DNA of 30,026 nt from the IMG/VR virus record IMGVR_UViG_3300042934_000458, positions 1 through 30,026 of that record; one strand, 5' to 3'. This stretch comes from a virus. Each line of letters starts with the position of its first letter. The stretch's first letter is position 1. A program made the position numbers and the translations under genes. Shown piece after piece: positions 43 through 9,426 of this stretch. A model generated the notes under the pieces. It did no database searches. It worked only from the letters and a program-made list of their open reading frames with translations, and was not told the DNA's origin.

Positions 43-127
43 GCGGACGTGGTGGAATTGGTAGACACACTGGATTTAGGTTCCAGCGGCGCAAGCTGTA
101 AGAGTTCGAGTCTCTTCGTCCGCACCA
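43..127 (+). tRNA. tRNA-Leu (anticodon UAG)
   Basis: The acceptor stem GCGGACG (43-49) pairs with CGTCCGC (117-123), followed by discriminator A and an encoded CCA (125-127). The anticodon stem CTGGA/TCCAG encloses the loop TTTAGGT, which gives anticodon UAG (reads CUA). The long variable arm and the TTCGAGT T-loop fit a class II leucine tRNA. The integrase gene ends only 10 bases downstream and points toward it, so this is the integration target, and the tRNA is intact after insertion. Confidence 0.97.
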
Positions 128-6985: not shown

Positions 6986-7134
6986 GGCCGCATCGGGGTG
7001 TGATCTGGCCGGCGCTTATCTCCGACTCAGGATGTCCGCCTGCCTTGGAGTTCAGTCCATGGCTCAAACACCCGGCTTGTTTGAAACGCGTCCGCGCATC
7101 AGCCTGCGCATTCAGATCACACTCCGATGCGGCC
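6986..7134. repeat. 22-base inverted repeat enclosing 105 bases
   Basis: The arm at 6986-7007 is the reverse complement of 7113-7134 except for one position. Read as plus-strand RNA that position is a G-U wobble, so all 22 pairs could form; on the minus-strand RNA it is an A-C mismatch. The enclosed part contains a smaller hairpin (CAAACA 7065-7070 with TGTTTG 7078-7083). The minus strand of the enclosed part carries four GGA triplets. No gene is visible in it. Confidence 0.7.
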
Positions 7135-7164
7135 TGCGATGGGGAGCAGGGCATCGGGCAGTTA

Positions 7165-7179
7165 ACGGCAGGCTGCCGT
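7165..7179 (-). terminator. Small perfect hairpin just past csrA
   Basis: ACGGCA and TGCCGT flank a three-base loop. On the minus strand the hairpin is followed by TAACT rather than a T-run, so it is at best a weak terminator or an RNA 3'-stabilising stem for the csrA message, whose stop lies 17 bases upstream of it. Confidence 0.35.
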
Positions 7180-7195
7180 GGCGCTGGTTGTTCGG

Positions 7196-7375
7196 TCAGG
7201 CGGCGGCTTCGGCCTCGGCCTTGATCCGCTCATGGATCTCTTGGCGGTGCACGGGCACGTCCTCTGGCGCTTCGACGCCCAGGCGGATCTGGTTGCCCTT
7301 GACGCTCAGCACCATCACGCAGATGTTGTCGTTGATCACGATGGTCTCGCCTGCCTTGCGGGTCAGTATCAGCAT
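7196..7375 (-). CDS. csrA: CsrA/RsmA-family RNA-binding regulator
   Basis: This 59-residue protein aligns along its whole length with CsrA/Rsm[21 protein letters not shown], then [19 protein letters not shown] and [10 protein letters not shown]. The family binds GGA-containing hairpins in mRNA leaders as a swapped dimer and blocks or stabilises translation. The RNA-contacting N-terminal LILTR strand and the VHR arginine are retained, so it should bind RNA. The ATG at 7375 follows AGGAG; an in-frame codon nine residues earlier falls inside the shared leader element. It is carried on the phage leftward early operon, where it could retune host post-transcriptional control or act on phage leaders. 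The family is certain; the targets are unknown. Confidence 0.95.
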
Positions 7376-7390
7376 GGTCCTACTCCTGGG

Positions 7391-7432
7391 TTGGTTTCCC
7401 ATGTAGCCCGCTGTTGCGGGCGAATAAGGTGC
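7391..7432 (-). promoter_or_regulatory. Leader element copy 3 (hairpin + GGGAAACCAA) before csrA
   Basis: On the minus strand a hairpin (GCCCGC AACA GCGGGC) is followed by GGGAAACCAA (7391-7400), then the AGGAG ribosome site and the csrA start. The same order is found before two other genes of this operon. The hairpin sequence differs between copies while GGGAAACCAA is identical. Confidence 0.6.
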
Positions 7433-7531
7433 CGGTCAGCCCCGGCTGCTCACCACTGCCCAGGTGACGGGCTTTGCGCTAGGCTGAGCGCTCTCACACA
7501 AACACAGCCAGCAAAGGAGGACAGTGCGCGT

Positions 7532-7762
7532 ATGCACACTTACAAACTGAAGTACCTGTCGAATGAAGGCGACTTGGCACAGCCGACTTTTGAATCAGAC
7601 AAAAGACTCGACGCTGGTGATGTGATCGAGCTGGAAAGCGGGTTTTGGCACTTCATCACGGACATTCGAAATTTGAAGACAGGTACTCAGCTAGTTCTTG
7701 CTGAATCCGGTCAGACTGCTCAAGAGGCAGAGTTGCTAGCAAGGCAGCGACTAGACGACTGA
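7532..7762 (+). CDS. Small protein of unknown function on the opposite strand (76 aa)
   Basis: I do not recognise this 76-residue acidic protein (MHTYKLKYLSNEGDLAQPTF onward). It is predicted mostly beta in its first two thirds (DVIELESGFWHFITDI) with a Gln/Glu/Ala-rich terminal helix. The ATG at 7532 follows AAAGGAGG at an 11-base distance. It points opposite to the surrounding leftward operon, and its last 107 bases overlap the end of the convergent 155-residue gene. Codon use and the strong ribosome site favour a real gene. It could be expressed in the lysogen as a moron. Confidence 0.65.
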   Translation: MHTYKLKYLSNEGDLAQPTFESDKRLDAGDVIELESGFWHFITDIRNLKTGTQLVLAESGQTAQEAELLARQRLDD

Positions 7763-8123
7763 GTACGACAGTTGCGTACTTCGCGCAGCTTTCTCGATCG
7801 ACCTCTGTGCTTGGGTGCATCAGTTTGAGCCGAGTGGCTAGACCGATGTCGCCCTGGTGTGAGATGGATACGAATGCCGCTTCGATCCTCTCCGACAATC
7901 CAGGTGGAGTGACGCAAGGGTATGAGTGCGCGCTGGGCTCGCTGTTGAGCCTGAAGACGTCTGCGTGAGTCTCGTGTAGCGCCTTGACCGCCTCACTGTG
8001 CGAAGTCGATACCAGTATCAAGCCCCGGTCGAAAAGCTCCTTCAGGTACCCAGGCTCTGCCTCGCCGATATGGACACATCGCTTAGACGCGGGGTCGATG
8101 GCCACCACTGCTTGATTGTTCAT
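7656..8123 (-). CDS. Phage protein of unknown function (155 aa)
   Basis: I do not recognise this 155-residue soluble protein. The N-terminal half alternates strands and helices (AVVAIDPASKRCVHIGEAEP, then ELFDRGLILVST), and the C-terminal third is helical and leucine-rich. The ATG at 8123 has GGAGAAGG just upstream and is preceded by the operon's repeated hairpin plus GGGAAACCAA leader. Its 3' end overlaps a plus-strand gene by 107 bases, an unusually long convergent overlap. It is one of the first genes transcribed from the leftward promoter. Confidence 0.65.
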   Translation of the reverse strand: MNNQAVVAIDPASKRCVHIGEAEPGYLKELFDRGLILVSTSHSEAVKALHETHADVFRLNSEPSAHSYPCVTPPGLSERIEAAFVSISHQGDIGLATRLKLMHPSTEVDRESCAKYATVVLSRLVAALLATLPLEQSDRIQQELAEYLSSNFECP

Positions 8124-8135
8124 GTCCTTCTCCGA

Positions 8136-8180
8136 TTGGTTTCCCGTCTGGCCCTGTCGCCAAGGCCAGCCAGTGAAATC
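8136..8180 (-). promoter_or_regulatory. Leader element copy 2 (hairpin + GGGAAACCAA)
   Basis: On the minus strand TTTCACTGG leads into a stem CTGGCC/GGCCAG (10-base loop), then GGGAAACCAA (8136-8145), GGAGAAGG and the start at 8123. The element follows the stop of the gene starting at 8358 directly, so it lies between two genes of the same operon. Confidence 0.6.
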
Positions 8181-8358
8181 AGGCGGCGCGTACCTTGCTG
8201 GCCCGCGCCTTCTTCTCTACGCCGCCCACGTCCACCACCAGGTACTCACCGCCGCCCCGGCCATGCCCCAGGTTCTGGGTGCCCACGTACTTGCCAGCGC
8301 TTTCGGCGCCGCGTGGGTTGGTGAAGATGACGTCTTGGCCTTTCTTGAATCCGCTCAT
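8179..8358 (-). CDS. Small basic SH3/KOW-like phage protein (59 aa)
   Basis: This 59-residue basic protein (MSGFKKGQDVIFTNPRGAES, then GKYVGTQNLGHGRGGGEYLV and a KKARASKVRAA tail) looks like a compact beta-barrel of SH3 or KOW type with a Gly-rich loop and basic tail. Such folds often bind nucleic acid or ribosomal partners, but no family can be assigned. The ATG at 8358 follows AAGGAG. It is the first clear gene after the leftward promoter, the place where lambda carries N. The sequence is not recognisably N-like. Confidence 0.65.
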   Translation of the reverse strand: MSGFKKGQDVIFTNPRGAESAGKYVGTQNLGHGRGGGEYLVVDVGGVEKKARASKVRAA

Positions 8359-8379
8359 GCGAGCTCCTTGTTGCTGTGG

Positions 8380-8423
8380 TTGGTTTCCCGGCTGGCCCGC
8401 GTGAGCAGGCCAATCGGTGAAAC
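8380..8423 (-). promoter_or_regulatory. Leader element copy 1 (hairpin + GGGAAACCAA)
   Basis: On the minus strand GGTTTCACCGATTGGCC, a loop and GGGCCAGCC precede GGGAAACCAA (8380-8389), then AAGGAG and the start at 8358. GGTTTC at the 5' end can also pair with GAAACC, closing a longer stem. The GGTTTC pairing partly differs in the other two copies. Confidence 0.6.
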
Positions 8424-8630
8424 CTATCCAAACCATGCCGCGCCGCGGCTATCCCCACCTGGCCGGGTCACACATTTCGTGGACGGTGTTCTTCCCGGCT
8501 GGCTGCATGGTCTGGCGTCCTCCCAATGAGGGGAGTCCGGCAGCTATCCAGAGGCTGCATGGTCGACGACTTAGCTTGTTCCAACCCGGGTGAGGGCCCG
8601 GGTGCGTCGAGGTGGTCACGTCTGGTTGTG

Positions 8631-8639
8631 TAAAGAGCG
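8631..8639 (-). promoter_or_regulatory. boxA-like antitermination motif (candidate nut site)
   Basis: The minus strand reads CGCTCTTTA, a close match to lambdoid and rRNA boxA, about 30 bases downstream of the predicted start of the leftward promoter. A stem ACCCGGG/CCCGGGT (minus strand, about 8575-8605) lies further downstream, but no classic short boxB with a GAAAA-type loop is visible. A short motif such as this can arise by chance; its position is what supports it. Confidence 0.45.
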
Positions 8640-8654
8640 AGGCGGCTAGCGCCT

Positions 8655-8668
8655 ATAACCTGTGTTAT
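8655..8668. promoter_or_regulatory. Operator OL1-like (ATAACCTGTGTTAT)
   Basis: This 14-bp near-palindrome matches the ATAAC-N4-GTTAT pattern found at four other sites in the immunity region. It covers the predicted transcription start of the leftward promoter, so bound repressor would block it. Confidence 0.8.
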
Positions 8669-8675
8669 GGAGCAA

Positions 8676-8703
8676 ATCATAATATATGTTTTCATCTTGT
8701 CAA
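8676..8703 (-). promoter_or_regulatory. Leftward early promoter (PL)
   Basis: On the minus strand a consensus -35 TTGACA (8698-8703) and a -10 TATGAT (8676-8681) are separated by 16 bases in an AT-rich setting. Operators lie immediately on each side. It would drive the leftward operon from the gene at 8358 through csrA toward xis and int. Confidence 0.85.
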
Positions 8704-8716
8704 TAACTCAGGTTAT
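8703..8716. promoter_or_regulatory. Operator OL2-like (ATAACTCAGGTTAT)
   Basis: This 14-bp near-palindrome of the same ATAAC-N4-GTTAT class abuts the -35 box of the leftward promoter. It sits 48 bases from the other left operator. Confidence 0.8.
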
Positions 8717-8726
8717 AAAATAGGCC

Positions 8727-8751
8727 AAAAAAAACCCGCTCAAGGCGGGTT
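8727..8751 (-). terminator. Rho-independent terminator after the repressor gene
   Basis: On the minus strand the stem AACCCGC/GCGGGTT is followed by a run of eight T. It lies 18 bases past the repressor stop and isolates repressor transcription from the leftward promoter region. Confidence 0.9.
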
Positions 8752-8769
8752 GTGCTGGAACGCGTGGCT

Positions 8770-9426
8770 TCAGAGCTTCATGAGTGCACGAACCACGACG
8801 CCCACGATCCGACAGTCGCCAGCGCACATTTCGGTAGGGTAGGCCGGGTTCAAAGGCTTCAGGAATCGCCGTCCGCCGTCTTCTACCAGCTTTTTGAAAG
8901 TCGCTTCGTTGCTATCGGCCAGCTTGGCGATAACAAGCTTGCCATGTTGTGCGTCAGCCTCAGTGTCCACAAGGATCAGAGTGCCCTCGACGATGCTTTG
9001 CCCAACAGGGGATGTCATCGAGTCTCCTTTGACCTCTAGCCAAAAGGCTGGGCCTTTGGCCTCGTACTCAGACATCTCATAACGGTCCGAAAAGCCTGGT
9101 GGAAAGGGCTCGACAGCTTCAGCCCAAGCCCCAGCAGCTACCCAGCTAATTACCGGGTAGCGATACGTCATCTCAGGGTTGTGCGCTGGGGCAACGTTGC
9201 TGACGCGGGCATGGCTTTCGGTTCCAGAGGCCAGCCACTCAGCTGTCACGCCGAGAGCCTTGGCGATCTCAAGCAGCTTTTTCGAGGACGAATTCCGGCC
9301 GCTCTCCAAATGCTGGATGGTCACCTGGCTTACCCCTGCCTTATCGGCGAGCTGCTGCTGGCTCAAACCTAGGGCTTGCCGCTTCGAATGGAGCCGGTCT
9401 TTCAACGCAAGGGTATGTGTATTCAT
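8770..9426 (-). CDS. cI: CI-like S24 prophage repressor
   Basis: This 218-residue repressor has an N-terminal XRE/HTH_3 domain (about residues 8-65: LGLSQQQLADKAGVSQVTIQ) and a C-terminal LexA/S24 peptidase domain. The self-cleavage site is A98-G99 (WVAAGAW), the nucleophile S136 (KGDSM) and the general base probably K178 (EATFKK). This predicts RecA-stimulated autocleavage and SOS induction. The ATG at 9426 was chosen because the extra 30 codons upstream run through the operators; it has almost no ribosome site, as in leaderless cI messages. It should bind the ATAAC-N4-GTTAT operators on both flanks and keep lysogeny. Confidence 0.95.
   Translation of the reverse strand: MNTHTLALKDRLHSKRQALGLSQQQLADKAGVSQVTIQHLESGRNSSSKKLLEIAKALGVTAEWLASGTESHARVSNVAPAHNPEMTYRYPVISWVAAGAWAEAVEPFPPGFSDRYEMSEYEAKGPAFWLEVKGDSMTSPVGQSIVEGTLILVDTEADAQHGKLVIAKLADSNEATFKKLVEDGGRRFLKPLNPAYPTEMCAGDCRIVGVVVRALMKL

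Follow-up and report, generated by a model that had tools for sequence, protein, structure and literature searches.

Does a repeated leader link the small genes of this phage operon, and is it a signal for expression or a joint for recombination? The first-pass annotation reported that csrA, a 155-aa gene and a 59-aa gene each carry a hairpin followed by an identical GGGAAACCAA just before the ribosome site, and it offered both readings, a common translational control signal or a recombination joint. We put a probability of about 0.6 on the repeated module being an undescribed cis-acting RNA leader of temperate Pseudomonas phages that is read by the host and doubles as a recombination joint.

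Two complete copies and one half copy in the window

We found three exact copies of GGGAAACCAA in the window, by which we mean the whole 30,026-base stretch of DNA analyzed here; all are on the minus strand, and 0.03 copies are expected from dinucleotide shuffles. Allowing up to two mismatches gave 21 matches, which is the chance level, so the signal resides in the exact copies. Each of these has a GC-rich hairpin on its 5' side and a Shine-Dalgarno sequence (SD) with ATG on its 3' side, with leader fold z-scores against shuffles of -3.4 (csrA), -3.2 (155-aa gene) and -3.9 (59-aa gene). The annotated order of hairpin, GGGAAACCAA and ribosome site was thus correct, except that the repeat unit is larger than a hairpin and a 10-mer. 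In the 59-aa and 155-aa leaders, GGTTTC or GATTTC located 5' of the hairpin base-pairs with GAAACC in GGGAAACCAA to form one 18-bp stem with a bulged A, making GGGAAACCAA the 3' arm of the module.

The complete copy before the 59-aa gene (E1) lies at 8377..8424 on the minus strand and scores 66.9 bits (E 9e-16; fold z -3.9) with R1, the covariance model of the module that we used for genome scans. Its stem spans 8424-8382, its tail is AACCA and GGGAAACCAA is at 8389-8380; it is followed by an SD, AAGGAG, read directly at 8364..8369 (minus strand), and by the 59-aa gene at 8179..8358 (8358-8179, minus strand; PHROG 15496, unknown function). The TGA stop of this gene overlaps the 5' end of the second complete copy (E2; 8133..8180, minus strand; R1 66.0 bits, E 2e-15; fold z -3.2), which has a GNRA loop, GCGA, and GGGAAACCAA at 8145-8136. 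E2 precedes the 155-aa gene (7656..8123, read 8123-7656 on the minus strand), which is without a family match and has one IMG/VR relative at 89% identity.

The third copy (E3; 7388..7433, minus strand) scores only 12 bits with R1 (E 0.28). It retains the 3' arm and tail, GGGAAACCAACC, at 7400-7388 (GGGAAACCAA at 7400-7391), while the 5' arm is lost and a small hairpin unrelated to the module, GCCCGC-AACA-GCGGGC, stands at 7421-7406. E3 lies before csrA, a 59-aa gene at 7196..7375 (7375-7196, minus strand; PF02599, Pfam E 7e-25; PHROG 9500). Since csrA leaders in related phages contain the full module, we regard the copy in the window as a half copy, and the sharing proposed for three genes therefore holds in full for two. 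The degenerate fourth copy proposed near 8490 (8503-8488) has no R1 match and no stable fold (z +1.3); we rejected it as a module copy. It belongs to a separate conserved leader RNA at 8638-8436.

Elsewhere in the window, a tRNA gene at 43-124 (plus strand) borders the integrase gene (1246-137, minus strand) and is a likely attachment site. A 127-aa gene at 6835-6452 (minus strand) resembles phage sigma-factor/LuxR-type HTH proteins (PHROG 3282, Pfam GerE). Elsewhere the module accompanies its relatives; in the window a different large hairpin lies upstream of the gene.

The module is a covarying RNA hairpin

Loci for comparison came from an IMG/VR scan with GGCCNGNCGGGAAACCAA and from protein searches in which CsrA and the 59-aa gene served as queries. 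Across these loci the motif reappears together with an unvarying partner on its 5' side, defining a module of about 48 nt that consists of GRUUUC, a bulged A, CYG, a 1x1 mismatch, a 9-bp variable stem, a 4-nt loop and GGGAAAYC-AACC, followed by the SD and AUG.

The module is an RNA structure. In a covariation seed of 24 different copies, selected with a pattern based on sequence alone, paired cells amount to 96.1% and nine pairs have two-sided changes; covariation is 0.404 compared with 0.138 for shuffled and at most 0.065 for slid alignments. The lower-stem variants GGUUUC..GAAACC and GAUUUC..GAAAUC interchange, and the upper stem varies in sequence yet remains paired. Among 116 distinct genome copies, in an alignment fitted to the model, 13 pairs have two-sided changes and covariation is 0.378 versus 0.155. 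Module hairpins contain 207 G-U cells versus 31 A-C cells, and the bulged A is retained in 95 of 96 hairpins; together, these two features indicate that it is the sense strand that folds, as RNA (or as sense single-stranded DNA). Helix length is fixed, with TTTCAC-27 nt-GGGAAA found in 207 of 232 copies. The UUUC/GAAA of the lower stem is invariant, the upper stem covaries freely, and the loops (n=96) are GCGA, GCAA, TCAC and others, with GGAG occurring once.

The module precedes the starts of unrelated genes

The module is associated with gene starts and is independent of the gene that follows. An SD and ATG opening an ORF of at least 35 aa lie 6-24 nt downstream in 103 of 127 distinct copies, compared with 3.2% for random positions and 1/127 on the antisense strand; about a fifth of copies are without a convincing start nearby. 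The base of the stem stands about 15-22 nt upstream of the AUG. The proteins encoded downstream form about 69 unrelated clusters, of which csrA is the largest (23 distinct copies). The gene upstream often ends right at the module, with its stop codon at about -3 to +2 nt in 29/70 cases. The proposed common translational control signal is supported by covariation as a start-associated RNA structure; its translational effect is putative.

Public records contain over-long ORFs that swallow the module, such as zjk6_30, TC7_039 and psageB2_041. Annotated ORFs cross it at loci L198 (19889-20581), L201 (17832-18716) and L203 (19980-20273), and the start codons of these three are probably wrong in the public annotation.

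Two simple roles for the hairpin were rejected. The computed energy for opening the ribosome-binding site (RBS) is 6.72 kcal for the native leader, 7.41 kcal with a shuffled module and 6.87 kcal with the module deleted, so that the RBS is equally open with or without the module and neither SD sequestration nor a thermometer-like switch is retained. This predicted indifference of RBS accessibility to removal of the module in silico also counts against our own preferred reading. An intrinsic terminator was rejected because the tail, AACCR, is not a U-tract and a terminator scan finds none at the module.

Carriers are temperate phages of Pseudomonadaceae

The module does recur in related phages, and R1 delimits its range. 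Matches were obtained in 66 of 199 genomes sampled from the genus Pseudomonas, 27 of 198 from the family, 2 of 293 from the order (each of them part of the genus sample too) and 1 of 274 from the class, this one being the query genome itself. A scan of GTDB species gave 78 Pseudomonas-named entries among the 80 genome loci listed. The other two are named Pantoea and Streptomyces: the Pantoea contig can be aligned with Pseudomonas loci (about 82%), and the "Streptomyces" contig, with 55% GC and about 92% identity to phage contigs of this set, is probably contamination judging from its sequence. As both exceptions resemble Pseudomonas loci or phage contigs, we rejected a spread beyond Pseudomonadaceae; the module is restricted to phages and prophages of this family.

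Genomes (5-7 Mb when whole) carry 1-7 copies, mostly clustered. Known carriers include phiPSA1, psageB2, psageK9, Medea1, Aurca01 and PseuP_224 as well as MD8, zjk6, phi297, LESphi3, TC7 and phi2. In the known-phage records examined, the module lies downstream of cI and shares its strand. Seven near-complete phages (245 kb) contain 1-3 copies apiece, each immediately beyond cI, and no module was found in their pR and late operons. In known phages, which are temperate and lambdoid, the home of the module is the leftward (pL) operon next to cI. A cellular repeat, such as a REP- or MITE-type palindrome, which would populate intergenic parts of the chromosome in many copies, was rejected given the 1-7 copies per genome and the confinement of all known-phage copies to one early operon.

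What reads the module? The only protein shared by all 14 phages compared is a cI-like repressor (BLASTP 1e-5), and a dedicated phage-encoded reader was rejected on that basis. From this result and the restriction to Pseudomonadaceae we infer a host reader, whose effect on the downstream genes is likewise putative. One branch of this reading differs in its last step: the module would be the operator hairpin of a sequence-specific translational repressor, following the logic of the MS2 and PP7 coat-protein operators, with a host protein as the repressor. An invariant lower stem around a nearly universal bulged A would suit such a site, as would a stem base positioned for a bound protein to encounter the 30S subunit. 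However, the phages compared share no protein to act as repressor other than the cI-like one, and no Pseudomonas protein is known for such a site, and we consider this version possible but rather unlikely.

The module in the pL operon

In the window, a probable pL promoter (TTGACA-16-TATGAT, 11/12 consensus) is located at 8676..8703 on the minus strand, with an operator-like inverted repeat, I1, around it (8654-8717). A boxA-like GCTCTTTA, a match to the core, follows at 8631..8638 (minus strand), 214 nt upstream of E1. The same boxA core lies upstream of the first module in the sense orientation in 97 of 131 loci, against none antisense and 6.9% at random.

This arrangement raises the possibility that the module is a component of nut- or put-type antitermination, in which boxA and hairpin would act together in the pL operon. 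The frequency of boxA agrees with such a role, and so does one phage group with the module about 12 nt directly after boxA. Yet the module repeats gene by gene behind a single boxA, keeps a constant distance to start codons and not to boxA, and was not found in the pR and late operons of the seven near-complete phages. In a nut site, boxA precedes a boxB hairpin to which an N protein binds; the module hairpin also recurs without boxA. Antitermination is in our view improbable. The nut-like order of boxA, about 12 nt and module is seen at loci L036, L046, L047, L050, L057, L060, L064, L068 and L074-L076.

Between boxA and E1, the window holds a separate structured leader RNA, "type i" (8436..8638, minus strand), which contains 8503-8488; in a 13-sequence alignment, 9 of its 24 predicted pairs have two-sided changes. 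This RNA of about 190 nt, with covarying helices, occurs at 20 non-redundant loci and has no Rfam match. Unrelated leader RNAs occupy the same place in other phages, among them a "GCCTCTACCGGCGACCGGCGATC" class and an "ATTAGCG..GCCGGACCTCATGC" class, and several undescribed classes of pL leader RNA may exist. We also observed a minigene of two codons and a perfect SD (AGGAGG..ATGAAGTAG; ATGCAGTAA in MD8) that is conserved in pL leaders (L078, L091, L121, L123, L125, L018, L038, L049, L056, L162, L167 and L196) and recalls the bar minigenes of lambda.

Genes are exchanged at the module

We compared the 60-nt flanks of all copies pairwise. Both sides are shared in 116 pairs and one side only in 301 (204 the gene side, 97 the upstream side), although many of these pairs are related and the counts do not represent independent events. 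The 60 nt upstream of E1, for example, are identical in L017, where csrA replaces the 59-aa gene. Gene order thus changes at the motif, and the proposal of a recombination joint is supported by pairs that share one flank and break at or inside the module.

Alignments break in 73% of exposures at module-bearing starts versus 58% at other starts, or 0.78 and 0.54, respectively, when calculated per start. The excess at the module is real but moderate, these genomes being mosaic throughout. In pairs with a shared gene and an unshared upstream side, the 3' arm and tail match closely (4% mismatch) and the 5' arm stands at the background level; in pairs with a shared upstream side, the hairpin travels with that side and the differences fall mainly in the tail. 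These patterns place the joint within the GGGAAAYC arm or immediately 3' of it.

Could the module be a joint and nothing else, that is, a boundary sequence kept as a landing site for homologous recombination between cassettes, with a hairpin that has no RNA role? The one-sided pairs, the exchange point in the 3' arm where the gene is shared and the identical flank upstream of 8377-8424 and of csrA in L017 all fit this explanation. A joint would have no need, however, of compensatory changes, a helix of set length, an unchanging bulged A, a bias to G-U over A-C or uniform spacing to the start codon, and the break frequency exceeds that at other gene starts only moderately. We therefore regard it as very doubtful that recombination accounts for the module without an RNA function.

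CsrA is not a general partner

Although csrA is the largest downstream family and AAGGAGUAGGA adjoins the start in csrA leaders, control by a phage CsrA (or RsmA) acting on its own and neighboring genes through these leaders is highly improbable, and CsrA was rejected as a general partner, because csrA is present in only 9 of 80 module-bearing genome loci (about 8 kb each) and GGA in 1 of 96 hairpin loops.

Downstream of csrA, the window has an inverted repeat at 7134-6986 (minus strand), with 22-nt arms GGCCGCATCGGAGTGTGATCTG and CAGATCACACCCCGATGCGGCC that are 105 nt apart and several GGA motifs inside. A second large inverted repeat, GACCGCATTGG..CCAATGCGGTC, lies at about 6932-6850 (minus strand); both are between csrA and the 127-aa gene. 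This region has a fold z of -4.3 and could be a candidate CsrA sponge RNA.

Comparison with known elements

Searches of Rfam 15 gave no match to the module in the window at the gathering threshold or in the 7100-8800 stretch at E up to 5, and searches of 12 further loci (E cutoff 0.5 or 0.1) gave none at the module. The genome papers of MD8 and PseuP_224 do not mention it, and we found no description in open-access literature searched for the motif letters or for boxA and leader RNA in Pseudomonas phages, which does not prove that it is unreported.

The nearest analogue is the SAS/ESAS of cluster K mycobacteriophages (PMC3203893); the module is not a member, but is likewise a phage start-associated leader element. 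SAS and ESAS are short repeats in one orientation, immediately upstream of the start codons of unrelated non-structural genes in these temperate phages; SAS is a 13-bp GGGATAGGAGCCC that includes the SD, and the inverted repeats of ESAS were reported not to support mRNA pairing (PMC3203893). The module is similar in standing in one orientation a few nt before the starts of unrelated genes and in having its inverted-repeat part upstream of the SD. It differs from SAS in that its conserved block is GGGAAAYCAACC, with the SD outside and 3' of the block, and from ESAS in that its pairing covaries strongly; its hosts are Pseudomonadaceae, in contrast to both.

Boundary sequences of mosaic phages, conserved short sequences at gene joints, have been described as recombination targets (model summarized in PMC3233612). 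The module, too, sits at gene joints at which phage homology begins or ends, but it is a covarying RNA hairpin positioned relative to the RBS. Integron attC sites have RYYYAAC/GTTRRRY core sites and an integron integrase; the arms of the module are instead GRTTTC/GAAAYC, and no recombinase family common to all carriers was found when the phages were compared by BLASTP.

In the lambda pL-nutL-RNase III hairpin-N leader and at the RNase III sites of T7, a hairpin stands directly upstream of the SD in an early operon. The position behind pL and boxA and the helix length of the module agree with these leaders, and by analogy RNase III cleavage is putative here; unlike them, the module places one hairpin sequence ahead of many genes and keeps its lower stem invariant. 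Binding hairpins for CsrA/RsmA, which display GGA (A(N)GGA) in the loop, are comparable in lying close to the SD of a leader, with csrA often downstream of the module, but loops of the module generally lack GGA and most of its carriers are without a nearby csrA.

A proposed portable leader for early genes

Returning to the host-read leader that doubles as a joint, we propose that the hairpin would fold on its own in the mRNA and leave the ribosome site open. An RNA-binding protein or RNase of the Pseudomonadaceae host would recognize the invariant lower stem and bulge, and would thereby set initiation, processing or decay for each gene separately. The order of pL, boxA, leader RNA, hairpin and SD resembles that of the lambda N leader. 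Our first guess is therefore a host RNase that would process the transcript, or a protection from it, as at the hairpins of the lambda N leader or the T7 early region; protein-operator control comes next. The lower stem is more conserved than RNase III would need, which counts against our reading.

The same 48 bp or so before many genes would at the same time provide a homology joint, through which units of leader and gene may be gained, lost and exchanged. The csrA leader of the window, with its 3' half only, looks like a product of such an exchange. More tentatively, with the odds in our estimate slightly short of even, the module may be a portable 5' leader that places unrelated early genes under one host-read signal and whose hairpin is also the exchange joint, an integron-like modularity that operates without a dedicated recombinase.

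One third of the sampled Pseudomonas species genomes carry the module, which stands ahead of dozens of gene families of unknown function. R1 consequently offers a search handle for the early-operon accessory genes of temperate Pseudomonas phages, and the module can correct start-codon calls in public phage annotations. As RNA leader and mosaicism joint are the same sequence, the targeting of phage mosaic boundaries can be tested directly. A host factor that reads the module, if found, would reveal a genus-wide layer of control over prophage genes.
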